Source of the DNA: Ignavibacteriales bacterium
Lineage (GTDB): Bacteria > Bacteroidota > Ignavibacteria > Ignavibacteriales > Ignavibacteriaceae
Assembly (NCBI GenBank): GCA_015709675.1
Contig: CP054182.1
Coordinates: forward strand, 1,343,448-1,407,447
Direction of reading: 5' to 3'
DNA: 64,000 nt
The notes beneath the pieces were generated by a model. It had not been told where the DNA came from and ran no database searches. It saw only the letters and a list, made by a program, of their open reading frames with translations. The translations under genes and the position numbers were made by a program. Numbering within the stretch: the stretch's first letter is position 1; the number at the start of each line of letters is the position of its first letter. Below, piece after piece: positions 4,087 through 61,582 of the stretch.

Positions 4087-6135
4087 ATGAAACTGTATAC
4101 AACGTTATTGATTCTGGTAATTTTATCATCTTCCTCCCGTGCAGAAAATCCCGTCCTCTTCAGGGGGAGCGGGCTTGCCTACGCAGACAAAATGCTGGTG
4201 ATGACCCTTGCCGGAATTGTGAACCGCGACGCTGCCCGGTTATATCTCTGGAATGTGTATGAAACCTGGTCATTCAAAAACACGGATGAAACCTGGGGTG
4301 ATATATACCGCCAGAGGGGAGGAGTGGTTTTCGATACAATCAGCACGGTCAGCCAGCTGGTGAACAGATTCCGCGCCAGGATTAACGGAGGTGTGGTGTA
4401 TGACTTTAACAGGTTTTACGGGAACTTCAGCGGACAGAGTTTTAACTGGCAGGCAGAATATGCATCTTTGATAGGCGGATTAACCAACAGACTTCCTGTC
4501 ACCACAACTCTGGCTGCTGCATATAATTTACAGATAAGTGACTCTGTTCTGGCGCATGATTCATTTGACGGCGACAGTTCACGTTATCTGCCGGGGCGTC
4601 TTGAACAGCCGCAGCATCCCTGGAACAATACTTCGCTGACCGAAGAGCAGCGATACCTGGCACTAATTGACTGGGGAATAAGGAATATCCTGCCGCTATG
4701 CAATCCCGCTAAATTCTATATACGCGAACTAACGGATTTTACGGTGAAGGAGAGAATGTTTCAGGTAAATCTTGCCGGAACGGAGGATCTGAACTTTAAC
4801 TCACTGCCGGCAGCAAAAGCTGAACTGATTGAGCGGCTGCTGGTTTTTATGCAGGGAAAAAATCCCAATGATATTTTTCATATATACGGCTGGATGAGGC
4901 CTGAACCGCTTACGCAGTGGTTTGCGACGTATAATGCATCATTTCATGAAACGCTGCTGGGTAATCTTTCCTGGCATACCTCTTTCCGGGTTCCTGATGA
5001 GACGCTGGTGCTGAGAGCTAAAGTTAATGGAGATACGGTTGAAGTGAGGAATAAATTTTATCTCCTGCTGATAAGCAGTGAAGGAGATGCATCGAACTGG
5101 GTGGTGGGGCTGCAGTCAGGCGCATGGGTTTCATCTGACCGTGGTTCGGTTCCGTTTGGATGGGGCATTAATCTGCATCTGCTTTCCATGATGCCTTTTA
5201 TAGCAAAGTATTATTACGATACTGCCACAGAGAAAGATGGTTTTATCAGTGTAACCTCTCCGCTGGGCTATGCATATCCTGATCTCTGGACTGCTGCAGC
5301 GCTGCCTTCGGCTCACGCTGCTTCAATTGAACTGATGAATCATTTCAGCCTGAAAGAAATCTACGGCTATAAGCATTATGCATCATCCGGTTCGGTGATT
5401 TACCGTGGAAGAACAATTAATAACAGTTTTAACTTTCAGAAGTATGGTCAGTTTCAAAAGAATATCGGGGCTGAGATAACATTCCTTTTTGATCCGATGC
5501 TGGCAACACAGACGCCAAACCAATCATACGGATCGCTGCTGTTTAACCATGTGAATGACGGTACCTTTTACGGCAGCGCAACAGATATACCGGCAATGGC
5601 GGCAAGGATTAAAACAGCGGTGCAGAATAAAACAAAGCCGTACTTTTATCTGGCAGGTTACCAGCGTATGCGCCATAACAGTGCGTCTCTGATAAACTCC
5701 CCCGGGTCGTCTGATATCACACCGCAGAAACTGAAGCAGTTGCATGATATATTAAAATCAGATCCGGATATTGGTGCCGATATTGAATTTGTAACACCGC
5801 AGTATTTTTCTGCTTTGCTCAGAAAAAAGCTTGGGCTTACCGGAGCGGAGGATGAAAATATTATGACGATATCTGATTACGGCCTCCGGAATTATCCGAA
5901 TCCGTTTAACAGCAGTACCCGGATACAGATTGAGATGCCTGAAAGCGGTTATGCAGAACTTGTGATATATAATATGGCCGGTGAGTTACAAGAGGTTCTT
6001 CACCGGGGCGGGCTTGAAAAGGGAAAACACTATATGAATCTGGATGCTGCCGGTTATCCATCAGGAATATATTTTGCGATGCTGAAGAGTGGTACGGGAA
6101 TTAAGAAAACAGCAAAGCTTCTGCTGATGAAATAA
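4087..6135 (+). CDS. GxGYxYP domain secreted protein with T9SS sorting domain
   Basis: About 682 residues starting at ATG 4087; this start gives a clean signal peptide (MKLYTTLLILVILSSSSRA), whereas GTG 4078 would add three residues. The body matches the GxGYxYP family: an N-terminal domain with LVMTLAGIVNR and the SPLGYAYPDLW segment that names the family. These are putative carbohydrate-active proteins, but the activity is not established. Residues about 600-682 form a T9SS type A C-terminal domain (NYPNPFNSSTRI, then YPSGIYFAMLKSG, ending TAKLLLMK), so the protein is expected to cross the outer membrane and be released or anchored at the surface. The hairpin array begins 19 bases after the stop. 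Confidence 0.82.
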   Translation: MKLYTTLLILVILSSSSRAENPVLFRGSGLAYADKMLVMTLAGIVNRDAARLYLWNVYETWSFKNTDETWGDIYRQRGGVVFDTISTVSQLVNRFRARINGGVVYDFNRFYGNFSGQSFNWQAEYASLIGGLTNRLPVTTTLAAAYNLQISDSVLAHDSFDGDSSRYLPGRLEQPQHPWNNTSLTEEQRYLALIDWGIRNILPLCNPAKFYIRELTDFTVKERMFQVNLAGTEDLNFNSLPAAKAELIERLLVFMQGKNPNDIFHIYGWMRPEPLTQWFATYNASFHETLLGNLSWHTSFRVPDETLVLRAKVNGDTVEVRNKFYLLLISSEGDASNWVVGLQSGAWVSSDRGSVPFGWGINLHLLSMMPFIAKYYYDTATEKDGFISVTSPLGYAYPDLWTAAALPSAHAASIELMNHFSLKEIYGYKHYASSGSVIYRGRTINNSFNFQKYGQFQKNIGAEITFLFDPMLATQTPNQSYGSLLFNHVNDGTFYGSATDIPAMAARIKTAVQNKTKPYFYLAGYQRMRHNSASLINSPGSSDITPQKLKQLHDILKSDPDIGADIEFVTPQYFSALLRKKLGLTGAEDENIMTISDYGLRNYPNPFNSSTRIQIEMPESGYAELVIYNMAGELQEVLHRGGLEKGKHYMNLDAAGYPSGIYFAMLKSGTGIKKTAKLLLMK

Positions 6136-6153
6136 TCAGCTCGGGCTTTGCAA

Positions 6154-6780
6154 CTGAACCCGCATGGCGGGTGACCGGTTAATAGGAAAGTCATCAAACG
6201 ACAAACCCTGAACCCGCATCGCGGGTGTCCGGTTAATAGGAAGGCAAGGAAAACGCGTCCCTGAACCCGCATCGCGGGCGACCGGTTAATAGGAAAGCAA
6301 TCAAGTGACAATCCCTGAACCCGCATCGCGGGCGACCTGTTAATAGGAAAGCAATCTAACGACAAAGCCCTGAACCTGCATCGCGGGTGACCTGTTAATA
6401 GGAAAGCAATCAAACGACAAACCCTGAACCCGCATCGCGGGTGACCTGTTAATAGGAAAGTCATCAAACGACAAACCCTGAACCCGCATCGCGGGCGACC
6501 CGTTAATAGGAAAGCAATCAAACGACAAACCCTGAACCCGCATCGCGGGCGACCCGTTAATAGGAAGGCAAGGAAAACGCGTCCCTGAACCCGCATCGCG
6601 GGTGTCCGGTTAATAGGAAAGTAATCAAACGACAAAACCCTGAACCCGCATGGTGGGTGACCTGTTAATAGAAAATCAATCAAACGACAAAACCCTGAAC
6701 CCGCATCGCGGGTATCCGGTTAATAGGAAAGCAATCAAACGACAAAACCCTGAACCCGCATTGCGGGTGACCCGTTCTGA
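6154..6780 (-). repeat. Tandem array of 12 hairpin repeats, 53-55 bp period (upstream of tnpA)
   Basis: Twelve units start at 6154, 6208, 6261, 6315, 6370, 6424, 6478, 6532, 6585, 6640, 6695 and 6750. Each has a core hairpin ACCCGC-ATN-GCGGGT followed by TGACC and a spacer with TTAATAGGAAAGCAATCAAA. The six-base-pair stem is kept in all units; units 5 and 10 have changes that leave G-T pairs. The loop is ATC in most units, ATG or ATT in others. Two units (2 and 8) share a variant spacer AGGAAGGCAAGGAAAACGCG. Read on the minus strand the core is GGGTCACCCGC-GAT-GCGGGTT, nearly the same as the array downstream of the transposase gene, but inverted. It is not CRISPR: the spacers are repeats themselves. 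Confidence 0.93.
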
Positions 6781-6869
6781 CCTGAATAAAATTCCAGATT
6801 TGAATTCAATCAAAATTCATATTTTTGAGCAACGCTATAGCTTTTTCTGCAAAATGAATTGAGAAAATC

Positions 6870-7331
6870 ATGGCAAACACATATACGCAACTCTACATTC
6901 ATATTATCTTTGCAACAAAAACACGCATGGGTGTAATTTCGCCGCAATGGCAAGAAGATTTATACAAATACATTTCTGGTATTATTAAGAACCGGAAGCA
7001 AAAGTTATACATTATTAACGGAATGACGGATCATATCCATATACTGGTCAGTATGTCTCCAGACCTTTCGGTTTCGGATTTGGTCAGAGATGTTAAAGCA
7101 GTCTCGTCTAAATATATTAATGAAAATAAGCTTGTTGCAGGCCGTTTTGAATGGCAGCGGGGATTTGGGGCGTTTTCGGTGAGTCCATCCAAGCTGGAGT
7201 CGGTAATTGATTATATAAAGGATCAGGAAGAGCATCATCGGATAAAGTCATTCAGAGAGGAATATGAATGGCTGTTGAAAGCGCATGCAGTTGATTATGA
7301 TCCGCGGTATATAATTGATTCTGAGGAATAG
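6870..7331 (+). CDS. tnpA: IS200/IS605-family Y1 (HUH) transposase, RAYT-like
   Basis: A 153-residue single-domain Y1 transposase. It begins with the usual YTQLYIHIIFATKTR segment. The metal-binding HUH motif is DHIHIL (around residues 54-59) and the catalytic tyrosine lies in VIDYIKDQEEHHR (around residue 118), followed by the conserved HHR and SF residues. These enzymes cut and rejoin single-stranded DNA next to hairpins. The length and a single catalytic tyrosine fit TnpA, or a REP-associated transposase (RAYT), which is domesticated. No TnpB or other element gene is beside it. Instead of simple left and right ends it is bracketed by 12 hairpin repeats upstream and 7 inverted ones downstream. 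The gene looks intact. Confidence 0.88.
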   Translation: MANTYTQLYIHIIFATKTRMGVISPQWQEDLYKYISGIIKNRKQKLYIINGMTDHIHILVSMSPDLSVSDLVRDVKAVSSKYINENKLVAGRFEWQRGFGAFSVSPSKLESVIDYIKDQEEHHRIKSFREEYEWLLKAHAVDYDPRYIIDSEE

Positions 7332-7345
7332 GCGAAATTTGTGAT

Positions 7346-7705
7346 GGGTCACCCGCTCCGCGGGTTTAGGGAGTGGTGCAATAGGTTTGATTTTATTAAC
7401 GGGTCACCCGCTCCGCGGGTTTAGGGAGTTGTGCAATAGGTTTGGTTTTATTGACGGGTCACCCGCTCCGCAGGTTCAGGGAGTTGTGCGATAGGTTTGA
7501 TTTTATTAACGGGTCACCCGCTCCGCGGGTTTAGGGAGTGATGCAATAGGTTTGGTTTTATTAACGGGTCACCCGCTCCGCGGGTTTAGGGAGTGGTGCA
7601 ATAGGTTTGGTTTTATTAACGGGTTACCCGCTCCGCGGGTTCAAGGAGTGGTGCAATAGCTTTAACTTTATTAACGGGTTACCCGCTCCGCGGGTTTAGG
7701 GGAAA
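7346..7705 (+). repeat. Tandem array of 7 hairpin repeats, exact 55 bp period (downstream of tnpA)
   Basis: Units start at 7346, 7401, 7456, 7511, 7566, 7621 and 7676, always 55 bases apart. The core is GGGTCACCCGC-TCC-GCGGGTTTAGGG; the spacer includes GTGCAATAGGTTTG and ends TTTTATTAAC before the next GGGT. The six-base-pair stem is intact in all but unit 3, where one C-A mismatch occurs. The last two units read GGGTTACCC. The core equals the upstream array in inverted orientation except for the loop triplet (TCC here, GAT there on the minus strand), while spacers differ apart from the shared TATTAAC. Confidence 0.93.
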
Positions 7706-7783
7706 TGTGTTTATGAAAAATTGCTGATGGTGTATATCATTGCGTTGCCCCTCAATTAATTACTCAGGTAAAGCTCTGTAGAA

Positions 7784-7799
7784 ACACGCCGCGGCGTGT
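7784..7799. repeat. Dispersed palindrome ACACGCCGCGGCGTGT, copy 1
   Basis: A perfect 16-base palindrome extended by GTAGAA on the left and CTCTAC on the right, making an almost complete long hairpin. Three more copies occur in this window (44040, 44213, 63772), all between genes. It may also act as the 3' hairpin of the helicase transcript, which ends at 7872 on the minus strand. Confidence 0.85.
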
Positions 7800-7871
7800 C
7801 TCTACGAAGTTTAAGTGTTTGGAGAAATCAGGCTAGGGATTTGAGTAAAGCGTAAATGATGAGTAATTCAT

Positions 7872-9437
7872 CTAAACCGTCTTTACGTCCAGCTTCTTTC
7901 CTTTGAGTTTTTTGCCTCTTACTGAACGGACTACTTTTTCAGCTAAAGAAGCAGGTACTTCAAGATAACTGATTCTGTCCTGAATGGTGATATCCCCGAT
8001 AAGTTTTCCGGAAATATTTGCTTCTCCGGCAAAAGTACCGAGCAGGTCTCCCGGTTTTATTCTGTCCTTGCGGCCGATATTAACCGATATGGTTACGTTA
8101 CCATCACCTGAACTGATTTCTTCCGGTGCAGAAGAAGCAGCCTTCTTAGCCAGGCCGAATTTTTCCTTCATCAGGTAAGCTGCCACATCAAGTGATGTAA
8201 TCTCATCATCAAGCAGGTTCTCGACCATTTTAATATATTTTGGTGCATCTTTGGCTTTAGAAGCTTCGCGGACGCTTTTTGCCAGCGACTGTATCTTCAT
8301 ATCCTCAATATCACCGAAACTGGGAATTTTGCCCAGCTTCATTTTGTGATTGATATATCTCTGCAGGTTTTTCATTTTCTGGAAATCACCTCCGGAGACA
8401 AAAGTAAACGCCTTGCCTTCTTTGCCGGCACGGCCGGTTCTGCCGATACGGTGTACGTATGCTTCTTCATCCTGCGGCATATCGTAATTAAATACCGCTT
8501 CCACATCATCAATATCAAGACCGCGCGCGGCAACATCCGTGGCAACAAGAATTTCCAGCGTTCCTTTTCTGAATCTGCCGAGTACTTTTTCGCGCATACC
8601 CTGACTCATATCGCCGTGCAGACCGTCAACGGAATATCCGCGTGCACGGAGCTGCTCAACCAGTTCATCAACATAACGCTTCGTATTGCAGAACACCATT
8701 GAAAGTTTCAGGTTATGGAAATCAATCAGGCGGGTGAGTGATTCAATCTTATCTTTTCCGCGAACTTCAAAATACACCTGCTCAGTTTTTGGAACCGTCA
8801 GTACCTCATGTGCGATTCTGATATGCTCCGGATCTTTCTGATACTTTCTGGTCAGGTCAAGGATTGGTTTTGGCATGGTTGCGGAAAACATAACAGTCTG
8901 CCGTTCCTGAGGCGCCGAGCGGAGGATTTTTTCGATATCATCTCTGAAGCCCATGTTGAGCATCTCATCGGCTTCATCAAGCACTACCATGCTCACTTTG
9001 CTGATATCCAGGGTTCCGCGGTCAAGGTGATCCATAATACGGCCAGGGGTGCCGATGATGATGCGGACTCCCTTTTTCAGGGCGGTTATCTGCCGTTCAA
9101 TAGGCTGTCCGCCATAAACCGGGAGAATGGTTGCAAATTTTTTGTATTTGGCAAGCTTTGCCATTTCTTCAGCTACCTGGAGAGCAAGCTCCCTGGTCGG
9201 GCACATGATAAGGGTGTGAACATGTTTCCCCTCATGAGGCATCAGCTCAAGGGAGGGAATTCCGAAGGCGGCGGTTTTTCCAGTGCCGGTCTGGGCCTGG
9301 CCGATGATGTCTTTACCAGCGAGAACACGGGGGATAGATTCGGTCTGTATTGGGGTTGCCTCTTCGTAGCCAAGATCTTCAATGGCTTTCTGCATATCTT
9401 TAGAGAGGCCGAATTCTGTGAACCGGATTTTATTCAT
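7872..9437 (-). CDS. DEAD-box ATP-dependent RNA helicase (DeaD/CshA-like)
   Basis: A 521-residue DEAD-box helicase. Visible motifs: Q motif with ATPIQTESIP (28-37), Walker A AQTGTGKT (48-55), PTRELA (80-85), DEAD (154-157), SAT (185-187), and HRIGRTGR in the second RecA domain. After a linker of about 80 residues, the last 75 residues (ending GKKLDVKTV) look like a DbpA-type RNA-binding domain, as in DeaD/CsdA proteins. Such enzymes unwind short RNA duplexes in ribosome assembly and mRNA decay, often at low temperature. The gene stands alone; the hairpin palindrome at 7784 lies 72 bases past its stop. The family call is secure, the exact substrate is not. Confidence 0.95.
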   Translation of the reverse strand: MNKIRFTEFGLSKDMQKAIEDLGYEEATPIQTESIPRVLAGKDIIGQAQTGTGKTAAFGIPSLELMPHEGKHVHTLIMCPTRELALQVAEEMAKLAKYKKFATILPVYGGQPIERQITALKKGVRIIIGTPGRIMDHLDRGTLDISKVSMVVLDEADEMLNMGFRDDIEKILRSAPQERQTVMFSATMPKPILDLTRKYQKDPEHIRIAHEVLTVPKTEQVYFEVRGKDKIESLTRLIDFHNLKLSMVFCNTKRYVDELVEQLRARGYSVDGLHGDMSQGMREKVLGRFRKGTLEILVATDVAARGLDIDDVEAVFNYDMPQDEEAYVHRIGRTGRAGKEGKAFTFVSGGDFQKMKNLQRYINHKMKLGKIPSFGDIEDMKIQSLAKSVREASKAKDAPKYIKMVENLLDDEITSLDVAAYLMKEKFGLAKKAASSAPEEISSGDGNVTISVNIGRKDRIKPGDLLGTFAGEANISGKLIGDITIQDRISYLEVPASLAEKVVRSVRGKKLKGKKLDVKTV

Positions 9438-60984: not shown

Positions 60985-61255
60985 GTCTCCTCGGCTCCGC
61001 TCGGAGACCAGCTCGGAGACCAGAGGGTGGCTTCCGAGCGATCCTCGACTTCGCTCGGATACCGGAGGGTGGTCCCCGAGCGGAGTCGAGGGTGAACCCG
61101 CAACCGAATCGAGGACGGTCCCCGAACGGAGTCAAGGGTGAACCCGCAACCGAATCGAGGACGGTCCCCGGGCGGAGTCGAGGGCGGTCCCCAGGCGGAG
61201 TCGAGGGCGGTCCCCGAGCGGAGTCGAGGGCGGTCCCCGAGCGGAGTCGAGGGGA
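60985..61255. repeat. GAGCGGAGTCGAGGG-type repeat cluster, first part
   Basis: GC-rich and palindromic. It contains GGTCTCC..GGAGACC inverted repeats near 60985-61023, two copies of TGAACCCGCAACCGAATCGA, and seven units or variants of GGTCCCCGAGCGGAGTCGAG, the last three at 23-base spacing up to 61252. It is intergenic between fabF and the downstream group. Confidence 0.85.
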
Positions 61256-61480
61256 AATTGTGTTAATCATGTTTTCTACCAATTTGCAATTCCTCCGGAA
61301 TTGAATCCGGAGGATTCACAAGCTGGTAGAAAGGAAGAATCATTGTGAAGACGTACCCGAATCCGGAGGATTCGCAGGTTATGGGGTGGTTAATGAGGAT
61401 TTAGCAGGAAATATGCGGCTGCTTTGCATTTGGGGGGAATGTTTTCGTTTATTGTTCTCTACCAATTTTCGACTCCTCCG
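61256..61480. repeat. TCCTCCGGA palindrome elements between the repeat arrays
   Basis: At 61277-61330 an element reads CTACCAATTTGC, the palindrome AATTCCTCCGGAATT, GAATCCGGAGGATTC and TGGTAGA, so its ends are inverted. GAATCCGGAGGATTC returns near 61360. At about 61460 CTACCAATTTTC is followed by GACTCCTCCGGAGTC, where both arms of the palindrome have changed together. Confidence 0.7.
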
Positions 61481-61490
61481 GAGTCGAGGG

Positions 61491-61582
61491 CGGTCCCCGA
61501 GCGGAGTCGAGGGCGGTCCCCGAGCGGAGTCGAGGGCGGTCCCCGAGCGGAGTCGAGGGCGGTCCCCGAGCGGAGTCGAGGG
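61491..61582. repeat. Four perfect 23-bp tandem repeats
   Basis: Units at 61491-61513, 61514-61536, 61537-61559 and 61560-61582 are identical; each includes GGTCCCCGAGCGGAGTCGAG. They end 40 bases before the next gene. Perfect identity suggests recent expansion. Confidence 0.92.

Follow-up and report, generated by a model that had tools for sequence, protein, structure and literature searches.

Why a transposase gene should stand between two long tandem arrays of hairpins, and whether its product has anything to do with them, are the questions raised by a locus of an Ignavibacteriales bacterium (contig CP054182.1, within a genome of 4.21 Mb). We analysed this locus in a window of 64,000 nucleotides, i.e. 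the whole stretch of DNA in which the positions below are counted (Table 1).

Two outward-facing hairpin arrays flank an intact Y1 transposase gene

We recounted the 12 upstream units (period 53-55 nt) and 7 downstream units (period exactly 55 nt) described in an earlier note on this DNA, and reproduced both counts. The gene between them, described there as a Y1 transposase gene between inverted hairpin arrays, is indeed an intact open reading frame, and its product matches the Pfam family PF01797 (Y1_Tnp) with an E value of 1e-28, which places it in the TnpA-Y1 superfamily. The arrays were said to read toward each other, which is wrong: both read outward, away from tnpA, the upstream hairpins spanning 6157-6773 on the minus strand and the downstream hairpins 7346-7696 on the plus strand. 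The TRF scores of the upstream and downstream arrays are 877 and 593. As single-stranded DNA, the initial 31 bases of a unit fold into an identical 6-bp hairpin in both arrays, at −6.3 kcal/mol.

Table 1 Features of the tnpA locus, with positions counted in the window
Feature	Position	Strand	Description
Upstream array, 12 hairpins	6154..6776	-	Outward; core ACCCGC-NNN-GCGGGT; spacing 53-55 nt, with two variant units of 53 nt
Innermost upstream hairpin (hairpin A)	6753..6773	-	Without TATTAAC before the hairpin
tnpA, 153 aa	6870..7331	+	Subclass 1.2 marks: His55, His57, Tyr115, Gln119, His122-His123
Innermost downstream hairpin (hairpin A)	7346..7366	+	Without TATTAAC before the hairpin
Downstream array, 7 hairpins, loop TCC	7346..7701	+	Outward, 55 nt apart
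TTATTAAC, the first stretch with YTAY ahead of a downstream hairpin	7393..7400	+	Putative cut region; recurs in later units

Two finer claims held in part. The sequence TATTAAC precedes the later hairpins, as had been noted, and is absent only at the innermost one of each side and replaced by TATTGAC in one downstream unit. A single loop per array is found downstream (TCC in 7/7 units), but upstream GAT occupies 9/12 units only, with CAT in 2/12 and AAT in 1/12.

Most unit pairs within one array are 82-98% identical, spacers included; a CRISPR array was ruled out, as the spacers are near-identical between units and not unique. The two 53-nt variant units, which lie six units apart, are 74-81% identical to other units and 96% to each other, a pattern suggestive of the duplication of a block some six units long. 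The mean identity between upstream and downstream units is 61% and, therefore, each array seems to have grown independently of the other.

Two further repeats were seen in the window. A separate palindrome at 7766-7823 (GTAGAAACACGCCGCGGCGTGTCTCTAC and its surroundings), the source of many of the region's 60 matches in the sister genome, carries GTAG and CTAC at its two ends and is reminiscent of the class 2.4 'double foot' REPs. A G+C-rich unit of 23 nt, GAGGGCGGTCCCCGAGCGGAGTC and its rotations, is arrayed in tandem at 61065-61582.

The transposase fits subclass 1.2 of TnpA-Y1

The window TnpA carries YIKDQEEHH, WQ and DHIH and has a C-terminal helix at residues 128-138, and its catalytic residues His55, His57 and Tyr115 are invariant across 40 aligned proteins. 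The marks of subclass 1.2 given in the accessible part of Quentin et al. 2018 (PMC6006769), namely Y---Q--HH, WQ, DH[IV]H, a length of about 150 aa, a C-terminal extension and a low copy number with divergent copies, all apply to the window TnpA. A Pfam search gave four Y1 genes in the genome, the window's included, and these are divergent, the products of L011, L012 and L010 being 59%, 46% and 34% identical to the window TnpA. By signature and features, the protein thus fits subclass 1.2, which belongs to class 1.

A class 2 RAYT was ruled out by the subclass 1.2 marks, by hairpins that lack a GTAG foot and by the NCBIfam profile REP_Tyr_transpos, against which the protein scored 27.8 bits (cut-off 80). 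The NCBIfam IS200 profile was passed with 76.8 bits (cut-off 55). In a structure search with the predicted TnpA (mean pLDDT 91.4), the ISDra2 and IS608 transposases were the nearest and the REP transposase 4er8 stood at rank 30 (E 1.4e-5); the rmsd was large, 4.2 to 12.7 over the 30 matches at E ≤0.001, and the ranking alone was used.

Hairpin pairs about 50 nt apart flank most subclass 1.2 genes surveyed

Subclass 1.2 is tabulated as REP 'no' in the accessible part of PMC6006769, where the automatic REP search demanded GT[AG]G at the hairpin foot. We surveyed relatives of the window TnpA collected by protein alone, hairpins being ignored: the best 80 of at least 541 confirmed relatives, matches in the genomes of the family (63 of 80 have one) and additional loci that were fetched or listed. 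Removal of duplicates reduced the 205 loci with a match to 189, of which 174 scored at least 100, and the 158 of these with 260 nt on both sides form the survey, cyanobacterial subclass 1.2 genes being outside its scope. A pair was defined as two hairpins 45-58 nt apart, starting at most 160 nt from the gene.

By this strict rule, pairs were found on both sides of 58 genes, on one side of 55 and on neither side of 45; at least one flank thus carries a hairpin pair in 113/158 relatives, against the tabulated absence of REP. Control windows 1000-1260 nt away (n = 139) gave 0, 2 and 137, respectively, and no pair was detected beside the 12 subclass 1.1 (IS200-type) control genes. Other spacings yielded 2-4 both-sided and 18-25 one-sided cases, except that 95-108 nt, a distance close to two units, yielded 10 and 36, respectively. 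The distances between hairpins peak at 50-53 nt (170 of the 491 pairs up to 130 nt apart), whereas flanks shuffled with preservation of base composition only gave 3 pairs in all. When the two flanks were compared independently as mirror images, the score was at least 17 in 53/90 loci, compared with 3.4% of shuffled flank pairs.

Among named loci, with the phylum taken from record titles, many of them of metagenome bins, pairs on at least one side occur in Bacteroidota (41/51), Verrucomicrobia (10/11), Ignavibacteria (5/5), Poribacteria (3/3), Brocadia (1/1) and Acidobacteria (1/1). Just two hairpins are present on 159/187 paired sides in the strict count. Long arrays also occur outside the window, L165 having 18 hairpins by a loose count, which splits the window's arrays and leaves the window copy outside the 15 highest; the 12 and 7 hairpins given here come from direct counts.

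These data suggest that subclass 1.2 commonly has REP-like partner hairpins, despite its table entry, and that its basic end is usually a hairpin pair about 50 nt apart, here multiplied to 12 and 7. In the literature searched, with subscription papers largely outside it, we recognised no description of hairpins for this subclass.

Each gene has its own hairpin, and a YTAY motif precedes the outer one

A YTAY motif stands upstream of the outer hairpin on 152/187 sides, of the inner hairpin on 39/111, the denominator being smaller as inner hairpins less than 16 nt from the gene end were excluded, and of the third hairpin on 18/28. At the hairpin foot, AT-n-TC is common to inner and outer hairpins of the relatives, and the window has NGGTC, NGGAC and similar feet; GT[AG]G is not the foot in either. 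By analogy, YTAY would lie approximately where the cut-site tetranucleotide sits in an IS608-type end.

The closest 5-nt stem arms of the two flanks are identical in 24/33 genes, compared with 8/87 between different genes of one genome (genomes with several fetched subclass 1.2 genes). When the downstream flanks of 26 genes in 8 genomes were reassigned within genomes, the observed mean was attained in 0/20000 permutations, a result whose p-values are too small as the genomes compared are related. On these comparisons, each subclass 1.2 gene appears to have its own hairpin, unlike those of its sister genes. The loops tell a different story from the one proposed earlier, in which GAT and TCC might be left and right recognition forms: as a general rule this is not supported, since a loop is common to the two sides in 43 of the 64 genes that have a pair in each flank, and the loop spectra of left and right sides are alike.

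Hairpins are dispersed in the genome and vary in number in its sister

The genome search for the hairpin pattern, called for in the earlier note, gave 105 matches to GGGTCACCCGC-NNN-GCGGGTT with at most 2 mismatches (27 forward, 78 reverse); the reversed control pattern gave 0. Of the other three Y1 genes, those of L011 and L012 have their own, distinct hairpins on both sides (8 units and 1-2 in L011, 5 and 3-4 in L012), and that of L010 has hairpin repeats on one side only. Additionally, R1, a covariance model built for the outer hairpin, gave at least 109 hits in this genome at E up to 0.2; a covariation count was left out of the evidence, its rows having been chosen for stems that pair. All R1 counts are lower bounds, with up to 91 (family), 150 (this genome) or 29 (phylum) candidates scored per genome, and the model is narrow, failing on much of the hairpin type of the window itself and on the CCCCG-CTT type of the genomes G075 and G076.

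Most arrays of this genome stand away from any TnpA gene. In 40 fetched loci, many hairpins have stem arms (ACTCC, ACCGC, GCCGC, ACGCC) that occur next to none of the four TnpA genes and, therefore, hairpin families appear to outnumber TnpA genes. Only 9/117 motif hairpins lie inside putative ORFs, though these cover 71% of the same loci. In the solo arrays YTAY precedes 24/61 first hairpins and 98/116 later ones, a share biased by the choice of strand, since a strand was retained only if the motif preceded half or more of its later hairpins. One large solo array (L221, G000:C1:458000-462300), with no Y1 gene near, shows hairpins without and with YTAY in alternation, in a module of about 114 nt; the loop is mostly GCT in the former and mostly TCC in the latter, and the repeated module looks like the double hairpin itself.

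Two orthologous sites have 4 and about 6 hairpins in this genome (G000) and 2 each in that of the sister species (G001). In L237, the second array region was left out owing to poor alignment between the two genomes. As to the window locus in the sister, its left-flank contig ends about 120 bases inside the end of the upstream gene and its right-flank contig stops about 100 bases past its match.

Hairpins are associated with the transposase across genomes

In the genomes of the family, the median number of R1 hits is at least 25 with a close TnpA (E <1e-55, n = 34) compared with 3 in the others (n = 46), and at least 12 with any subclass 1.2 match (E <1e-20, n = 57) compared with 2 (n = 23). 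Over 247 genomes of the phylum, at least one hit was obtained in 66/111 with a strong Y1 match, a group set by Pfam E value that includes some subclass 1.1, in 24/65 with a weak one only and in 6/71 with none. The data support a statistical tie between the hairpins and the transposase across genomes, with p-values that overstate the significance as the genomes are related to each other.

The search for hairpins in genomes without the transposase, which the earlier note had named as counter-evidence, gave a divided picture. The tie to Y1 genes stands, and some genomes are nevertheless rich in hairpins without a TnpA match: at least 38, 13 and 19 R1 hits were found in G008, G052 and G065, at least 45 in G053, where the TnpA match is marginal only, and at least 26 in G286, which has no Y1. 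Conversely, the TnpA-bearing G043, G046, G075 and G076 gave no R1 hits, partly owing to the narrowness of the model.

A probable REPtron-like unit and the growth of its arrays

We conclude that the locus is probably a REPtron-like unit of a subclass 1.2 TnpA, whose double-hairpin ends have grown into tandem arrays. Cognate inverted hairpins flank the gene and are also dispersed between genes; the REP-RAYT-like unit suggested earlier is, thus, retained for its inverted flanking hairpins, their dispersal and their statistical link to the transposase, but not as a class 2 RAYT. The double hairpin is most likely the end structure recognised by subclass 1.2 TnpA, and the window shows its amplified form. 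What is directly observed is the layout of the locus, the correspondence between hairpin and gene, the association with the transposase over many genomes and the unequal unit numbers of sister species; the 45 relatives without a pair and the many arrays away from TnpA genes are counter-evidence.

In the mechanism we propose, each side of the gene carries TnpA-specific outward hairpins. The basic end consists of a hairpin A by the gene and a hairpin B about 50 nt further out, with YTAY before B and approximately AT-n-TC before both. By analogy with IS608 and ISDra2, TnpA would bind the hairpins on single-stranded DNA and would nick at YTAY, the bases at the hairpin foot serving as guide. Joining or re-copying of the interval of about 50 nt between cut sites would add whole units, and a two-hairpin end would become a tandem array, on each side separately. 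Copies would disperse between genes and may persist without a nearby gene. We infer the binding of the hairpins by TnpA, the position of the cut and the role of TnpA as driver of array growth.

For this last role there is a serious competitor, which may well be correct: the double hairpin would be the transposase substrate and the long arrays would grow passively, by replication slippage or unequal recombination, without TnpA catalysis. It agrees with arrays that are homogenised internally yet differ from each other, with 53-nt variants spaced as after duplication of a six-unit block, with the variation in unit number between species of arrays far from any TnpA, and with the large majority of paired sides that remain at two hairpins despite the presence of the gene. 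The spacing of 50 nt is, however, already set in the two-hairpin ends of several phyla and, therefore, the unit itself is no slippage product. As regards amplification, the data fit the TnpA route and passive slippage or recombination alike.

More tentatively, subclass 1.2 TnpA could itself be a builder of tandem arrays, a HUH enzyme with the two-hairpin module of about 50 nt (A, YTAY, B), cut internally, as natural substrate. If true, a single internal cut site would allow whole modules to be gained or lost, and tandem repeats would arise by a single-strand route, each gene having a private hairpin code, in records titled as six phylum-level groups.

It is improbable that the hairpins act mainly at the RNA level, as terminators, stabilisers of mRNA or regulators, with a merely secondary proximity to tnpA: their position mostly outside genes would suit such a role, but no Rfam match was obtained in 5900-7900 up to E 1, and neither the gene-specific cognacy nor the mirror symmetry around a transposase would be expected. 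More improbable still is an IS200/IS605 insertion sequence of the ordinary kind whose ends are slightly atypical, since, despite the IS200 profile and the structural nearness to ISDra2 and IS608, the window hairpins are mirror images facing outward, unlike IS608-type ends, which act on one strand, the other three Y1 genes are only 34-59% identical, near-identical mobile copies with same-strand ends were not found in the genome, and the subclass 1.1 controls lack hairpin pairs.

Comparison with known systems

The window protein has the same signature (Y---Q--HH, WQ, DHIH), length, C-terminal extension and low copy number as subclass 1.2 in the accessible part of PMC6006769; the subclass is tabulated there without REP, whereas here GTAG-less hairpin pairs flank most members examined. 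As far as described in the accessible parts of PMC8266576 and PMC6006769, the RAYT/TnpAREP REPtrons of class 2 likewise have cognate inverted hairpins around the gene and dispersed between genes, and BIMEs are frequently found as consecutive tandem copies (PMC8266576). The unit in the window differs from both by hairpins without a GTAG foot, by a class 1 protein under the REP cut-off and by a basic end whose two hairpins point the same way, with a spacing of about 50 nt and YTAY in between. With IS608 and ISDra2 (IS200/IS605, subclass 1.1), first in the structure search, it shares the HUH-Tyr fold, the catalytic residues and a tetranucleotide near the hairpin foot (general scheme, accessible part of PMC6006769), but not the mirror-image ends; near-identical copies of the element were not found, and 12/12 subclass 1.1 controls are without pairs at 45-58 nt. 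The TIRYT/TIRtron systems (Di Nocera et al. 2013, PMC3733652) likewise combine Y1 genes with inverted repeats that lack GTAG and of which some recur in the genome; in the accessible part of that paper, these repeats have GGGGWSAS in common or are mutually unrelated, and a 50-nt double hairpin or YTAY is absent from the description.

Tandem copies of REP pairs (BIMEs) are known already; the window shows a probable REPtron-like system with unusually long arrays in a subclass thought to be without one. The pairs provide a likely substrate for a transposase subclass reported to have none, and our results suggest that they were overlooked because GTAG is absent. They also offer many natural enzyme-hairpin pairs, several per genome, on how HUH enzymes read hairpins. 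The multiplication of a bacterial hairpin repeat becomes testable here because sister species differ in unit number and cutting is proposed at a motif of four bases.

Flanking sequences of other subclass members

Four loci of Flavobacterium or Flavobacteriales (L034, L040, L058 and L059) have the same gene start, ATGTTCCCATTACAAAGAGG, 3' of the downstream hairpins, in a gene that we take to resemble hemB; this common neighbour suggests vertical inheritance at one site. In the upstream flank of L110, hairpin pairs recur in copies 195 nt apart. Remoter members of the subclass, with lower profile scores (L128, L149, L154, L155 and L169), show other hairpin styles, with four-base loops (TGAA, TAAA) or GCCCT-TTC hairpins of different spacing.
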